Below, piece after piece: positions 21,642-29,412 of a stretch of DNA of 50,215 bases (position 1 is its first letter; each line of letters begins with the position of its first letter). The position numbers were made by a program, and so were the translations under genes. The stretch covers positions 1 to 50,215 of the forward strand of contig CANSTH010000006.1 in the NCBI GenBank assembly GCA_947649875.1, in the 5' to 3' direction. The notes beneath the pieces are model-generated. The model was given only the letters and a program-made list of their open reading frames with translations. It was not told where the DNA came from and did not search any database. This stretch comes from an uncultured Parvibacter sp. GTDB taxonomy: Bacteria; Actinomycetota; Coriobacteriia; Coriobacteriales; Eggerthellaceae.

Positions 21642-21680
21642 GGACCAAAACGCTTCTGGGAGCTGCTCCTGCGCCCCTCT

Positions 21681-21993
21681 ATTCTCAAAATAAGATAGAA
21701 CAAGCGGAAAATATCCTAGGATATCTCTTGAATGTCCTAGGATAAGTTGGTAATGTGGTGCCCATAAAGAATTGGCCAATTCTAAATGTTGTTGGGGGAC
21801 GCTCTTTAGAGAGGGCCCGCGAGGGCTCGGCGTAATGGCCGTTCGTTGGGGATTTTAAGCTTCATCGGCATCTTTGCCATCCTGCTGGCGAACTCGATCG
21901 GAAACCGCAGATGCGGGCGCGGCGCCGGTGTGCCGTTGGCTGCCGCTCCAGCCTGGGGATTCCGGGGAGCCTCCTTATGTTTCAGGAGGGAAG
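21681..21993 (+). promoter_or_regulatory. Duplicated leader and promoter of molybdoenzyme operon A
   Basis: These 313 bases are closely similar to 26639-26943 in front of operon B. They contain ATATCCTAGGATAT at 21711-21724 and TGTCCTAGGATA at 21733-21744, whose centres are 21 bp (two turns) apart, so they look like paired operators. A 16-bp palindrome AGAATTGGCCAATTCT follows at 21768-21783. A hairpin lies at 21811-21828 (GAGGGCCC, GCGA loop, GGGCTC). The ribosome-binding site TTCAGGAGGGAAG precedes the ATG at 21994. I see no match to a named riboswitch, but the long conserved leader may form RNA structure. Confidence 0.65.
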
Positions 21994-24458
21994 ATGGAAG
22001 AGATCAAGAGCACAAAAAGCACTCTAACGCGCCGTGGCTTCTTGAAGACGACAGCGGCCGTTGCAAGCGTTGCTGCTGTCGGTGTTGCTGGGGGGGGGTG
22101 CCGCTCACTGCCCTAGCTGAGGGAGGGGCGCCGAAACCATCGGGCGACAAAACCGGCTATAGCGTTTGCCGCGGCAATTGCGGTAGCCGCTGCCCCATGA
22201 AGGTGGAAATCCGCGAGGGCAAGGTGGTGCGCACCTCTGCTGCGGTGTTGGAAGAGCAGGACAACGCCGATCAGCGGCGCATTTGCGTAAAGGGCCTCAC
22301 CCAGCCGCAGCGCGTGTACGATCCCGACCGCATCAAGTACCCCATGCGCCGCGTGGAGGGCACCGAGCGCGGTGCCGGGCAGTGGGAGCGCATCAGCTGG
22401 GACGATGCGCTGGATGAAGTGGCCTCCAAGATGAAGGAGACCTTCGACAACTACGGCCCCTCTTCGGTGGCAATGTGGAACTCGTTCGCCTGCACCGGCT
22501 TGGTGAACGGGTCGGGAAAAGGCTCCGTCTCCTACGGCCGCTTCCTTTCTCGTACCGGCGCGACCATCCTTGGCCCTGGCGCCGACTATGCCCAGATGTA
22601 CTTGTTCTACGGTGCGCTCACCCTGATCTTCGGCAATGCGGGCACCGATGTTCCCAACGCCAATACCATTTTCGTGTGGGGAGCCAGCCCCACTGACGCT
22701 TACGTGCAGGACTGGCAGTTCGTATGCCGGGCACGCGAGGGCGGCACCAAACTGATTACCATCGACCCGCAGTTCACTGCGGCGGCAGCAAAATCCGATA
22801 TGTACGTGGCCATCCGTCCTGGCACCGATGGCGCCATGATGCTGGCCATGGCCAACTACATCATCGATAACGGCCTCATGAACGAGACCTATATGAAAAC
22901 CGTGAGCATCTCCCCGTTCCTCATCAAGGAAGACGGCCAGTACATCCACCTGAGCGAAGCCGGAGTGGCCCCCGTCGAGGTGACCAACCCGCTCACCGGC
23001 GAGCCGATGCTGGTGGACCCGTACATGGTGTGGGACAACGCCACGGGTACCTGGTCGGCACCTGATGCCGCCACCGACCCAGCGTTGGACGGAAGCTACG
23101 AGGTGAACGGCATCAAGGTGCGTACGGTGTTCGACCTCACCAAAGAGAAAATCAAGGAATACACGACCGCCAAGGCGGCAGAGATCTGCGATGTGCCCCA
23201 GGAAACCATCGAGGAGCTGGCGCGCATCTACGCCACCGAGGGCCCGGTGTACATCCACACCAACCAGGGGCTTGGCCATCACGTGAACTCGCATCACAAC
23301 TACAAGAACCTGGTGCTCCTGGCGTCCCTGACGGGGAACGTGGGCGTGCCCGGTGGCAGCTTGGGCCATGCCAGCCTTGGCTTCCGTTCCTTCCCCTACA
23401 ATCCGGCCCCCATGGCGGCCGGCGATGCCCAAAACCTGGACATTTGCGGCATGTACCTCCCCGAAATCATGGAAACCAAGAAGTGGGGCGACCAGCCGCT
23501 GGACATTCAGTTCCTGTGGATGGCCAATGGCAACATGCTGTGCAACGAGTCCGGCCGCGTAGAGCTGATCGAGGCTGTTAAGAAGGTACCGTTTGTGGTG
23601 TGCGCCGACTGCACTATGACCGATACGGCCAGTTACGCCGACATCGTGCTGCCGGTGCCCCATGCGTTCGAGGTGGAAGATATCGCCAGCCTGCCGTTCG
23701 TGCCCTACTTCCCCTATCAGCCGCGGCTAATTGAGCCGCTGTACGAATGCCGCACCGACTTCGCCATCTTGAATGAGCTGGCAAACCGCATGGGCATGAC
23801 GGACCTGTACGACAAGACCGAGGAAGAGTACCTGCACGAGATGCTGGACACCGAGGCCAACGTGGCCAACGGCGCCTCTTACGACGACCTCAAAGAAAAG
23901 ATGCTGGTGCGCCTGTACGACACCAGCGCGGTACCTGAGGTGGATGCGTCCTTCGTGATCATGCCCACCGGCCGCTTGACCTATTACATGGACAATCCAT
24001 TCCCGCGCAATTTCCGCGGCCAGGAAATTGCCGAATTCGAGCACTACCCCTACTACACCCATGCCAACGAGTCCTATTGGGAGAATCCGCTGCGGGAGAA
24101 ATACCCCTTGTTCGGCTTGGGCCAGCACGAGAAGTATCACGTGCACTCCCAACTGGCGATGACTCCTTGGCTGCGCGAGATAGAGCCGGAGCCCATGCTG
24201 AAGATCAACAGCAAGGACGCTGAGGCCCGTGGCATTTCCCAGGGCGACTATGTGCGCGCCTACAACGACCACGGCTCGGTGGTGCTGCGCGCAAAGGTCA
24301 CGCCGGGCATCAAGGAAGGCGTGGTATCCATTCCCCACGGGTGGAACGCCTCCCAATACAAGGAAGGCCATGCCCAGGACCTTACCAACCGGTTCATGAA
24401 TGATTTCTGCTCGAACAGCGCGTTTTACGACTTCCTGTGCGAAGTAGAGAAGTACTAA
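21994..24458 (+). pseudogene. Tat-exported molybdopterin oxidoreductase A, frameshifted in a G9 tract
   Basis: The gene starts at the ATG 21994 with a perfect Tat leader (MEEIKSTKSTLTRRGFLKTT then a hydrophobic stretch). After 32 codons it enters nine G (22090-22098), runs into the wrong frame and stops at TAG after CRSLP. From the end of the G-run the next frame is open to 24458 and encodes the complete mature enzyme: CRGNCGSRCP iron-sulfur ligands, the molybdopterin-binding core, and a C-terminal cofactor-binding domain. One extra G (or two fewer) restores an 821-residue protein, against 822 for the paralogue at 26944. The family reduces S-oxides, N-oxides or similar acceptors outside the membrane; the substrate is unknown. 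It could be phase-variable, a recent pseudogene, or a homopolymer sequencing error. Confidence 0.75.
22090..22098 (+). repeat. Poly-G tract (G9) in the Tat signal sequence
   Basis: Nine consecutive G follow GTTGCT in the hydrophobic part of the signal peptide. The frame is correct with 10 or 7 G and wrong with the 9 seen. Homopolymer G-tracts of this length inside coding regions are classical slipped-strand sites. Confidence 0.85.
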
Positions 24459-24474: not shown

Positions 24475-25098
24475 ATGACTCATTACGGAATGGCGATTGA
24501 CATGCAGCGCTGCGTAGGATGCAACGCGTGCACCATAGCCTGCAAGTCCACCAACAATGTTCCCGAGGGCGTGTTTTGGACCCGTGTGCATACCGATGGC
24601 GGCGATGTGCCGGATGTCCCGCGCGAAACCGCAGGCGGCCTGTACATGAACTACATCACCATCGGATGCCAGCACTGCGAGAACCCCGCCTGCGTGAAGG
24701 TGTGCCCGGTGGGGGCCACCTATCGCGACGAGGCCACGGGCATCGTGCGCCAGGACTACGACAAGTGCATCGGCTGCCGCATGTGCATGGCGGCATGCCC
24801 TTATACCGGCGTGCGTAGCTTCAACTGGGAAGAGCCGAAGTACGCAATGGATTTCGCCACAGGTGACATCGATGTTCCCAAGCATGAGAAACATGTAGTG
24901 GAGAAGTGCACCTTCTGCTACCAGCGCATCGCGAAGGGGGAGGTGCCGGCCTGCATGGAGCTTTGCCCGGCGCGCGCCCGCCATTGGGGAGACTTGGACG
25001 ACCCGGAGTCTGATGTGTCGAAGGCCCTCGCAGGACGCGAATACGCTCAGCTTCTTCCCGAGATGGGCACGAAGCCGTCCGTCTACTATCTGGTCTAG
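24475..25098 (+). CDS. DmsB-like four-cluster ferredoxin subunit of operon A
   Basis: This 207-residue electron-transfer subunit has four cysteine groups for [4Fe-4S] clusters: CVGCNACTIACK, CQHCENPACVKVCPVG, CIGCRMCMAACPY and CTFCYQRIAKGEVPACMELC. It passes electrons from the NrfD quinol oxidase module to the catalytic subunit. There is no signal peptide of its own, so it is expected to be co-exported with the Tat-bearing catalytic subunit. GGGGGAGGTG precedes the ATG 16 bases after the catalytic stop. From 24667 onward its DNA appears identical to the operon B copy, while the first 64 codons differ. Confidence 0.93.
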   Translation: MTHYGMAIDMQRCVGCNACTIACKSTNNVPEGVFWTRVHTDGGDVPDVPRETAGGLYMNYITIGCQHCENPACVKVCPVGATYRDEATGIVRQDYDKCIGCRMCMAACPYTGVRSFNWEEPKYAMDFATGDIDVPKHEKHVVEKCTFCYQRIAKGEVPACMELCPARARHWGDLDDPESDVSKALAGREYAQLLPEMGTKPSVYYLV

Positions 25099-25439
25099 CC
25101 GAGAGGAGATACGGAAATGACTGAAAACGTTTCGACGGCCGGCGCCGTCAAGGCTCCCTCGGCACCTGCCAAGGCGGGCAAGGGCGCCACGGTGGGGATC
25201 GTGGTGTCCGCGATCGTGGCCGCGATAGGCATCGCCCTGTGGATGGTGCAGCTCTCCGGCGGCATGGTGCAGACCGCGATGAGGAACCTCGACTCCTGGG
25301 GCCTCTACATCACCATGTTCATGTTCTTTGTGGGCCTCTCCGCCGGCGGCCTGATCATCAGCTCCGTGCCCAAGGCCTTCGGCATCAAGGGCTTCGGCGG
25401 CATCTCCAAGGTGGCCGTCATGACCTCCATCGCCGCCAC
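24667..25439 (+). repeat. 773-bp identical tract, copy 1
   Basis: This segment spans the last two thirds of the ferredoxin gene, the intergenic gap and the first quarter of NrfD. By eye it reads as identical to 29610-30382 (constant offset 4943). Identity begins and ends abruptly inside both genes. Confidence 0.85.
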
Positions 25440-26343
25440 GGTGGCCGCCATCGGCTTCGTGGTGGTGGACCTGGGCCAGCCCCTGCGGGTGTGGGAGCTC
25501 TTCGCCTACTCCAACCTGGGAAGCCCCCTCATGTGGGACATCATCGTGCTGATGGTCTACCTCATCCTCTCCTGCGTGTACCTCTGGGCCCAGGTGGGGA
25601 ACGAGAAGGGGAAGGTCACCCACGCGGCCCTGCGCGTCATCTCGGTCGTCGCGCTCGTGTGCGCCGTGCTGGTGCACTCCGTCACCGCCTGGATCTTCGG
25701 GCTCCAGCAGTCCCACGAGATGTGGCACACGGCGCTCCTCGCCCCCTGGTTCGTGTCCTCGGCGCTCGTGTGCGGCACCGGCCTCGTGATGTGCGCCGCC
25801 GTGGCCCTGCGCGCGGCCGGGTACCTCAAGTGGGACCAGTCCGACCTCGTGAAGCTCGCGAAGCTGCTGGCCGTGTTCCTCTTGGTCGACCTCTACTTCT
25901 TCGGCTGCGACCTGCTCACCGAGGGCTTCCCGGCCGCCTCCGGCATGGCCGTTGTGGACATGCTCGTGTCCGGCCCGCTCGCCCCCTTCTTCTGGGGCGA
26001 GATAATCCTCAGCGCGGTCGCGGTCGTGCTGTGCGTCGTGCCCCAGCTGCGCACCACGCCTCTCATGGTGGTCGCGGGCATCTGCGCCATAGCCGCCATC
26101 TTCTGCAAGCGCGCCCAGCTGCTCGTCGGCGGCTTCCAGATCCCCAACGTGGACCTGCCCGCCGTCATGACCCCCTTCACCGTCACCAACTGGGAGGGCA
26201 ACATGGCCCAGGCCTACGCCGGGATGGTCTACTGGCCCACCCCGCTCGAGCTCGGCATCGCCCTCGGCGTGGTCGGCCTCGCCTTCCTCGTCTTCTTCCT
26301 GGGGCTCAAGCTCCTGCCGCTCAAGCCCGCCGAGCAAGAATAG
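25117..26343 (+). CDS. NrfD-family membrane anchor of operon A
   Basis: This is a 408-residue polytopic quinol-interacting subunit with about ten hydrophobic helices, including VGLSAGGLIISSVPKAFGIK and VVDLGQPLRVWELFAYSNLG, where DLGQP-x-R is the NrfD/PsrC hallmark. It anchors the complex and oxidises menaquinol. GAGAGGAGATACGGAA precedes the ATG. The first 323 bases lie in the tract shared with the operon B copy. The remainder (25440-26343) uses CTC and other C-ending codons heavily, unlike the CTG-rich neighbours and the operon B copy, which suggests a different origin for this gene. Confidence 0.93.
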   Translation: MTENVSTAGAVKAPSAPAKAGKGATVGIVVSAIVAAIGIALWMVQLSGGMVQTAMRNLDSWGLYITMFMFFVGLSAGGLIISSVPKAFGIKGFGGISKVAVMTSIAATVAAIGFVVVDLGQPLRVWELFAYSNLGSPLMWDIIVLMVYLILSCVYLWAQVGNEKGKVTHAALRVISVVALVCAVLVHSVTAWIFGLQQSHEMWHTALLAPWFVSSALVCGTGLVMCAAVALRAAGYLKWDQSDLVKLAKLLAVFLLVDLYFFGCDLLTEGFPAASGMAVVDMLVSGPLAPFFWGEIILSAVAVVLCVVPQLRTTPLMVVAGICAIAAIFCKRAQLLVGGFQIPNVDLPAVMTPFTVTNWEGNMAQAYAGMVYWPTPLELGIALGVVGLAFLVFFLGLKLLPLKPAEQE

Positions 26344-26545: not shown

Positions 26546-26638
26546 CCTCTGCAGGTTGCATTGTGGAGCCATCGTGTCGTACATAGGTCGAGGGACGGGG
26601 ATGATGTCCGGTCCTTTCGGGCAGTTAAAAGGTCAGAT

Positions 26639-26943
26639 ATTCTCAAAAAAAGATAGTAAGAGCAAAAAATATCCTAGGATATCTCTTGAATGTCCTAGGA
26701 TAACTTGTTAATGTAGCGCTCATAAGAATTGGCCAATTCTAAATGTTGTTGGGGGACGCTCTTTAGAGAGGGCTTGAGAGGAGCCCGGCTGAATGGCCGT
26801 TCGTTGGGGGTTTTAAGCTTCATCGGCATCTTTGCCACCCTGCTGGCGAACTCGATCGGAAACCGCGGATGCGGGCGCGGCACGGGTGTGCTGCTGCCAG
26901 ATTCCGGGTTTGCGAGGAGCCTCCTTATGTTTCAGGAGGGAAG
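26639..26943 (+). promoter_or_regulatory. Duplicated leader and promoter of molybdoenzyme operon B
   Basis: This is the second copy of the leader at 21681-21993. The palindromes ATATCCTAGGATAT (26669-26682) and TGTCCTAGGATA (26691-26702) are kept at the same 21-bp centre spacing, and AGAATTGGCCAATTCT is at 26725-26740. The hairpin at 26770-26786 (GGGCT / AGCCC) uses a different sequence from copy 1 yet still pairs. The ribosome-binding site TTCAGGAGGGAAG is the same. Confidence 0.65.
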
Positions 26944-29412
26944 ATGGAAGAGATCAAGGAAGGCAAAGGCACTCTGACTCGTCGCGGTTTCTTTAAAACC
27001 ACGGCAGCCGTAGCCGGAGCAGCTGCGGCGGGAACGGGGCTGGTCACCATGGCTGCCCATGCGGCATCGCCCACCAAGGGCTTGCCGGACGAACAATCCT
27101 TTGTGAACACCTGTCGTGGCAATTGCGGCGGCAAATGCGTGCTGGTGGGAAAGGTGCGCGAAGGCAAGTTGGTGCAAACGCGCCCCTATGACCCCCCTGA
27201 GGGTTTCGAGCGCAGCCGTATGGGATGCGTTAAGGGCGTTACTTATCCGCAGCGTCTCTATGCTCCAAACCGTGTGCTTTACCCCATGATCCAGCGCGGC
27301 GAACGTGGCAGCGACAATTGGGAGCGTGTCAGCTGGGACGAGGCTATTTCTTATGTAGCCGACAAGATCAACAAGGCGCAGGCCGAGTACGGCCCCCAAT
27401 CCTTTGGGTTGTGGCACTCTTATGGCTCCGAGGGGTGGCTGAATGGTGCCTACCATCAGTCTACTGGCGTGGGCTACCATCGCTTCCTCAACACCTTTGG
27501 GGGCAGTGTGATTATTCCGGGCGGCGACCAGGCTCAGGTGTACATGGGCTTTTCCGTTGTACAGCATGGCACCAATTCGACGGCTGACTACACTAATGCT
27601 AAAACCCTTATCGCGTGGGGCGCAAACGTGACTGAGACTGTGCGCTGCTCGTGGCCTTTCATCTGTGACGCTCGTGACAAGGGGGCTCGCATCTTCGCGG
27701 TTGATCCCCGTTACACCATTACCGCATCCGGGGCTGACACGTGGATTCCCGTTCGCAGTGGCACGGACGGCGCACTCATTCTGGCCATGTGCAACTTCAT
27801 CATCGACAACGACCTTATGGATAAAGAATTCCTTGCTAAGAAGTCGGTAGCACCGCTTCTCATCAAGGACGATGGACAGTACCTCAGAATGTCTGACATG
27901 GGCGTCCCTCCCACTGAAGGTCCGCTTAATCCCTGGACTGGGAAGCCGACCATCATCAATCCCGAAGTGGTATTCGACCAGGCAACAGGCGAATTGACCT
28001 CGCAGTTTGTGGCCCAGGACCCGGCCTTGAGCGGTGAATATGAGTACGAAGGGATGCGTTTGCGTACGGTATTCGACTATGTGCACGACAAAACCAAGCA
28101 ATTTACGGTTGAGTTTGCCGCTAAGGAATGCGATATCCCTGCCGAACAAATCGAGGACCTGGCCCGTACGTATGCCACCAACACGCCGTCCACTATCGTG
28201 ATGGCCCAAGGCATGTGCCATCATGTGAACTCACGCCACAATTATAAGGATCTCGCCTACCTTGCCAGCCTGACGGGCAATATCGACCGCAAGGGTTCCA
28301 CGATTTATCTCAACAAGAATCATGTTAATGTGGAGAAAACAACGCTTGTGACCAGGGAGATGTACCCCGATCCATCAATGATGAAACCGTATACGCCGGT
28401 TTGCTCCGAGCGTGTTCCGGAAATACTTGAGACGGGAAAGCTGGGTCAGAACGATCATCCGCTCAAGGTTATCATGATCGTGAGCGCCAATCCCTTCGCC
28501 AGTGAATCGGGTCGCCAACGTTATCTCGAGACGCTCAAGTATCTTGACTGCCTTGTCACGGTGGACTGCTTTATGTCTGACACCGCGCGTTATTCCGATG
28601 TCGTCCTGCCGGTGGGGCTTTCGTTCGAGCAGGAGGACTTTCTGCAGATCAGCGCCCATGAGGTAGATTTCCTCATGCAAAAGGCGGTAGAACCGGCCGG
28701 TGAAGTGAAAAGCGACTTCGAGATTTATAACATGCTTGCACCCAAAATTGGACTGGATGGCCTGTACGATAAGGACGCCGAGGGCTATCTGCGGGCGCTT
28801 CTCGATAACGAGGAGAATAAGAAAATCGGGCGCACCTATGATGATTTCAAACGCGAAGGATGCATTGCCGACTGGAGTGAAGAGCCAGCTATTGGCACCG
28901 AGAACAATGCAACGCGAAGGGTTCAGTTCTATGTGCCGCACATCGTGGCACGAGACATAGCCTATACGGAGCTGCCCGAAGAGGAGAAGATTCCTTGGTA
29001 CGAGCATGCTATGGAGGCCTACCAGGACAATCCATTGCGCGAGAAGTACCCCTTCTTCGGAAACAGCGAACACAGCAACTACACAGGGCATTCCATGTAC
29101 AACAACATACCTTGGCTGCATGAGATTTGGGGAGACCCCTATGTGATGATCCCTGCCAAGGCGGCTGCGGAGCGCGGAATTGCCGAGAACGATATGGTTC
29201 GCGTGTTCAATGATCGTGGCGAATTTGTTGCCCGTGCGCGTCTTACCGACGGTCTGCGCTACGACTCCATCGTAATTCCCCATGGGCCTCAGCAGGACGC
29301 ATACCCGGTGGGCCATCCGCAGGATCTTACGTTGTGCTACAGCGATTTGACCGGAAACAGCTCGTACAACGACTTCCTCTGCGAAGTGGAAAAATGGGAA
29401 GGGGGTGAGTAG
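26944..29412 (+). CDS. Tat-exported molybdopterin oxidoreductase B (DMSO reductase family)
   Basis: This 822-residue catalytic subunit starts at the ATG 26944 behind TTCAGGAGGGAAG; the in-frame reading from 26869 only adds leader sequence. The Tat signal is MEEIKEGKGTLTRRGFFKTT followed by an Ala/Gly-rich hydrophobic stretch and AHA. The Fe-S ligands are CRGNCGGKC plus the later CVKG. The molybdopterin core follows (for example FAVDPRYTITASGADTWIPV then RSGTDGALILAM), with a C-terminal domain starting near DPYVMIPAKAAAERGI. It is paralogous to the operon A gene but intact. The acceptor is unknown; S-oxide or N-oxide reduction is the family default. Confidence 0.93.
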   Translation: MEEIKEGKGTLTRRGFFKTTAAVAGAAAAGTGLVTMAAHAASPTKGLPDEQSFVNTCRGNCGGKCVLVGKVREGKLVQTRPYDPPEGFERSRMGCVKGVTYPQRLYAPNRVLYPMIQRGERGSDNWERVSWDEAISYVADKINKAQAEYGPQSFGLWHSYGSEGWLNGAYHQSTGVGYHRFLNTFGGSVIIPGGDQAQVYMGFSVVQHGTNSTADYTNAKTLIAWGANVTETVRCSWPFICDARDKGARIFAVDPRYTITASGADTWIPVRSGTDGALILAMCNFIIDNDLMDKEFLAKKSVAPLLIKDDGQYLRMSDMGVPPTEGPLNPWTGKPTIINPEVVFDQATGELTSQFVAQDPALSGEYEYEGMRLRTVFDYVHDKTKQFTVEFAAKECDIPAEQIEDLARTYATNTPSTIVMAQGMCHHVNSRHNYKDLAYLASLTGNIDRKGSTIYLNKNHVNVEKTTLVTREMYPDPSMMKPYTPVCSERVPEILETGKLGQNDHPLKVIMIVSANPFASESGRQRYLETLKYLDCLVTVDCFMSDTARYSDVVLPVGLSFEQEDFLQISAHEVDFLMQKAVEPAGEVKSDFEIYNMLAPKIGLDGLYDKDAEGYLRALLDNEENKKIGRTYDDFKREGCIADWSEEPAIGTENNATRRVQFYVPHIVARDIAYTELPEEEKIPWYEHAMEAYQDNPLREKYPFFGNSEHSNYTGHSMYNNIPWLHEIWGDPYVMIPAKAAAERGIAENDMVRVFNDRGEFVARARLTDGLRYDSIVIPHGPQQDAYPVGHPQDLTLCYSDLTGNSSYNDFLCEVEKWEGGE

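Follow-up and report, generated by a model that had tools for sequence, protein, structure and literature searches.

Does a run of nine guanines that separates the Tat export signal of a molybdoenzyme from the enzyme itself reflect an error, a gene being lost or a switch? This question is raised by the first of two molybdoenzyme operons (from here: operon A and operon B) in the window, i.e. the whole stretch of 50,215 nt from an uncultured Parvibacter sp. that was analyzed. We consider slipped-strand (contingency) phase variation of a Tat-exported respiratory enzyme the best explanation and a likely one, given without sequencing reads, with no length variation seen within a species and with reversibility unobserved. 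The locus comprises the following features:

21680..22061, + strand: upstream region and signal start of operon A, 86% identical to 26638-27010 of operon B (blastn)
21994..22089, + strand: start codon and Tat signal MEEIKSTKSTLTRRGFLKTTAAVASVAAVGVA 5′ of the tract (translation)
22090..22098, + strand: G9 tract; assembled state OFF, ON state requires 10 (or 7) G (sequence, pattern search, frame translations)
22114..22116, + strand: TAG stop closing the signal frame at 9 G, 40-residue product (translation)
22098..24458, + strand: in the enzyme frame, the mature MopB catalytic subunit preceded by the last part of the signal (VPLTALAEGG, with an AxA-type cleavage site) (translation; PF04879, PF00384, PF01568)
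24475..25098, + strand: 4Fe-4S electron-transfer subunit of operon A (Pfam Fer4_11 and others)
25117..26343, + strand: NrfD/PsrC-type membrane subunit of operon A (Pfam PF03916)
26944..29412, + strand: operon B paralogue of the MopB (822 aa), whose Tat signal has no tract (translation, Pfam)

The sequence and a pattern search of the window place the run exactly at 22090-22098. It constitutes codons 33-35 of the operon A MopB gene, early in the coding region, and encodes Gly-Gly-Gly within the hydrophobic part of the Tat signal. The start codon ATG at 21994 is preceded by GGAGGGAAG; the signal frame translated from there is MEEIKSTKSTLTRRGFLKTTAAVASVAAVGVAGGGCRSLP, with RRGFLK as the Tat motif. 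The mature enzyme is encoded in a distinct frame that stays open for 786 codons after the tract, up to 24458. Addition of one G (or removal of two) fuses both frames into 822 codons including the stop, corresponding to 821 aa at 10 G. Full-length protein is thus obtained from one tract-length class in three, the gene being ON only at 10 or 7 G, and no second lesion was found in it besides the frame break. This anatomy and frame logic are shown by the translations. An initial annotation, made from the sequence alone, had described the start, Tat motif and mature enzyme as intact with the frames split by G9, and had predicted 821 residues at ten G against 822 for the tract-less paralogue in operon B; both statements held. 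The 822 aa of the latter are counted from ATG 26944, the corresponding MEEIK start, while an alternative upstream ATG would yield 847 aa.

The domains PF04879 (Molybdop_Fe4S4), PF00384 (Molybdopterin) and PF01568 (dinucleotide-binding) all score above the Pfam cut-off in the operon A MopB. Together with the 4Fe-4S and NrfD subunits, they place the enzyme among the complex iron-sulfur molybdoenzymes of the DMSO reductase superfamily. Its substrate is unknown: among the models for the substrate classes DmsA, PhsA, TtrA, ArrA and YnfE, no NCBIfam model reached its curated cut-off, the best score being 333 bits for TIGR02166 vs 778 required. The arrangement resembles that of the membrane-bound molybdoenzymes described for gut Actinobacteria, with a MopB carrying a Tat signal, a 4Fe-4S partner and a membrane anchor (PMC7028382); the text of that paper nowhere uses the words frameshift, pseudogene or homopolymer. 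Despite only 40% identity between the MopB enzymes of operons A and B, the region upstream is shared at 86%, which suggests that a control region may have been copied. Perfect palindromes are located at 21712-21783 and 26670-26740, namely TATCCTAGGATA plus a second one, TCCTAGGATA, and AGAATTGGCCAATTCT. Lying upstream of both operons, they are probably operator sites of a shared regulator, although this is inferred from sequence alone.

A G9 run as such is unremarkable in 50 kb, with one observed in the window vs 1.13 expected from a dinucleotide shuffle; its placement inside a Tat signal is the unusual part. Among 43 distinct Tat signals from the fetched loci, the longest G/C run was at most 5 in 39, and 7, 9, 9 and 10 in the other four. 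Whole-genome enrichment of G9 was considered as an argument and dropped, as the window count matches chance and counts vary widely within the family; genome-wide tract counts derive from pattern searches.

Two further genomes were available in the genus of the window genome (G000), one of them Parvibacter caecicola, with one genome per species. The P. caecicola orthologue of the operon A MopB is 90% identical, in frame and 823 aa long. It has no tract, the matching glycines being coded GGC GGA GGC. The dN/dS of the mature enzyme against this orthologue was 0.052 and equal across both halves; therefore, the window gene is constrained and not decayed. Together with the lack of a second lesion, this upholds the earlier view that the rest of the gene shows no decay. 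The P. caecicola orthologue (91% identical) of a second tract-bearing enzyme of the window genome, C31, also lacks the tract, which is hence not even a conserved feature of the genus. In 58%-identical orthologues from other genera, it was absent where the leaders were readable. A comparison of the tract in related strains, which the initial annotation had proposed, was possible only between species (one genome each); the orthologues have 9 G, 11 G or no tract.

Recurrence of such tracts is shown by six MopB Tat signals in four genomes, with 9, 10, 9, 9, 11 and 9 G. Each of the six genes needs 10 (or 7) G to be in frame, and as assembled one is ON and five are OFF. Besides the operon A gene, the window genome holds the C31 MopB, whose Tat signal contains G10 at codon 31; this gene is in frame and its product 842 aa long. 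In G002, a genome of the same genus, the MopB on C5 has G9 just before RRSFLK and is OFF, with 824 aa at 10 G. The others belong to genus g24: a MopB with 9 G (G060 C3), its 94%-identical orthologue with 11 G (G063 C125), both OFF and both 828 aa at 10 G, and a further MopB with 9 G (G063 C114), OFF and 848 aa at 10 G. Tract length therefore differs within an orthologous pair, 9 vs 11 G. The tract-bearing enzymes are mutually 32-38% identical, with the exception of the G060/G063 pair, which are orthologous to the window enzyme and 67-68% identical to it. With such low identity and with tracts at different codons, several tracts must have arisen independently. In the g24 pair the tract is nearer the twin arginines, and on this ground it probably arose separately from that of the window.

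Patterns applied to 138 genomes of the family and 398 of the class found genuine Tat-signal tracts only in the window's genus (g1) and in g24. Some codon forms of a Tat signal escape these patterns. A DNA pattern from a G8 run to CxxNC returned only the two tract-bearing MopB genes of G000 and misses a tract before RR or a variant cysteine motif; a wide Tat pattern gave mostly false matches in GC-rich genomes, and after translation only the g24 genes and G000 remained. Several of the compared genomes are draft assemblies whose read type is not known. No match to the leader was obtained when viral contigs were scanned.

Weak indel repair, as in the absence of MutS, often accompanies homopolymer contingency loci. 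The MutS_I domain (PF01624) was not found in any of the five genomes searched (G000, G001, G002, G060 and G055), whereas 11 of the 14 controls contain it. Yet the genus of G055 showed no Tat tract, so the absence of MutS permits such tracts and does not explain them.

Tracts are not confined to MopB genes. In G000, all seven clear coding tracts of at least 9 are in genes of exported proteins and lie no further in than about codon 75; those on C8, C14, C15, C86 and C94 belong to large exported proteins and are all in frame. P. caecicola and G002 show similar early coding tracts, including a secreted protein of G002 (L103) that is out of frame. In the tract-rich genome G060, most tracts are intergenic and the genic ones lie mainly near gene ends or close to the N-terminus of exported proteins. 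Slippage-prone runs therefore also build up without any switch. Tract context was taken from a home-made gene caller that missed some starts; these were examined by frame analysis.

Under slipped-strand phase variation, replication slippage at the poly-G would add or remove a G, a change of length within the population that is inferred. A tract of 10 (or 7) G would allow the complete 821-aa molybdoenzyme to be made and exported. With 9 G, the signal frame would end after 40 residues and no enzyme would be made, its absence from OFF cells being an inference as well; the assembled genome would represent the OFF state. Switching may allow a fraction of the cells in a clone to retain or give up one electron acceptor, but selection for it is likewise only inferred. 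The operon A locus would be one of several, with 5′-end poly-G/C tracts in other MopB genes and in genes of large exported surface proteins of the genus.

Slippage switches are mainly known in surface antigens and modification systems. In other Actinobacteria without MutS/L, such as the mycobacteria, frameshifts in homopolymers are common and can revert, e.g. in glpK of Mycobacterium tuberculosis (PMC10159617). That case (PMC10159617 and references therein) resembles operon A in being an actinobacterial metabolic gene that is inactivated, in glpK reversibly, by a homopolymer frameshift in a lineage without MutS/L; it differs in that glpK encodes a glycerol kinase, its tract lies outside an export signal and within-strain variation has been reported. 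In Campylobacter and Helicobacter (e.g. H. bizzozeronii, PMC3234257), the contingency genes share coding runs of at least 9, ON/OFF control by frame, the lack of mismatch repair and several loci per genome. Unlike operon A, they are mainly surface-modification genes and belong to Epsilonproteobacteria, and we found no report of phase-variable Tat-exported respiratory enzymes among them. Phase variation in the same family is described for the Eggerthella lenta capsule (PMC13174815), but there it proceeds by chromosomal inversion and not by slippage, and it concerns capsule and not respiration. A poly-G tract in the Tat signal of a molybdoenzyme was not reported in the literature searched, which left out many subscription papers; within these bounds, the initial remark that no description of such a switch in the group was known held.

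The main rival is a base-call or assembly error, with a true tract of 10 G everywhere and the enzyme constitutively in frame. In its favor, the G000 draft consists of 163 contigs, several of which end in long G/C runs, so that G runs appear hard to assemble, and the six other coding tracts of 9-10 in G000 are in frame. However, the same in-frame tracts also imply that runs of 9-10 were mostly called correctly in this genome. Moreover, five of the six MopB Tat tracts in the four genomes are off-frame, at 9 and 11 G, which would require repeated errors in both directions. We therefore regard an error as unlikely, not as excluded.

Less plausible still, and in our view very unlikely, is a recently fixed loss of function, i.e. 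slippage in a dispensable paralogue that has turned the enzyme off and is making the gene a pseudogene. Genomes of the genus yield 75-107 MopB matches each (some proteins with more than one match), any one of which is perhaps dispensable, and the P. caecicola orthologue has no tract. Against this stand the absence of a second lesion, the dN/dS of 0.052 and the recurrence of like tracts in independent MopB genes, one of them in frame. The earlier preference for a switch or an error over an old pseudogene is thus supported and has been strengthened by the relatives, but it remains unproven.

Transcriptional slippage or ribosomal frameshifting on a fixed 9-G gene would give mixed products and a phenotypic rather than a genetic switch. 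Nine identical bases suffice for polymerase slippage in some bacteria. Nevertheless, we hold this to be very improbable, as such events alone leave unexplained both the 9 vs 11 G between orthologues and the in-frame 10 G of C31. The least credible of the four rivals is an alternative start at 9 G, e.g. GTG 22098, giving a signal-less cytoplasmic enzyme and hence a switch of location instead of on/off: the enzyme frame extends upstream of the tract without a stop and contains this GTG, but no clear ribosome-binding site lies ahead of it and the first in-frame ATG (near 22199) is located beyond the first Fe-S site cysteines.

Slipped-strand switching allows a bolder reading, for which we see as much reason to doubt as to believe: two MutS-less gut genera of Eggerthellaceae may hold a repertoire of poly-G/C contingency loci that randomly switch respiratory molybdoenzymes, in their Tat signals, and large surface proteins, in the signal or N-terminal region, so that clonal cells would differ in the electron acceptors they can respire. 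If true, export-signal switching of respiratory reductases would be a form of bet-hedging over gut electron acceptors, and the presence of a gene in a genome or metagenome would not reveal whether the enzyme is made. This would bear on the prediction of drug and diet metabolism by these bacteria.

Further runs were observed in these genomes. G000 contains very long stretches of G and of C, oriented both ways, at several contig ends (e.g. L092, L095 and L096) and inside contig C25 (L078:2485-2590); they could be a sequencing artefact or G-rich intergenic repeats. The P. caecicola orthologue of the C31 MopB is preceded by G/C runs of 10 and 9, at distances of 216 and 330 bases (L173:10866-10988). 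The homologous secreted-protein genes at L253 (G000) and L104 (G002) both have a G9/G10 run ~390 bases upstream; these might act as promoter-spacing switches, although the flanks of the two runs look unlike. Finally, the reading frame of a LuxR-type membrane regulator of P. caecicola is broken at a C10 run close to codon 75 (L127:2506-2515), and this regulator is perhaps phase-variable itself.
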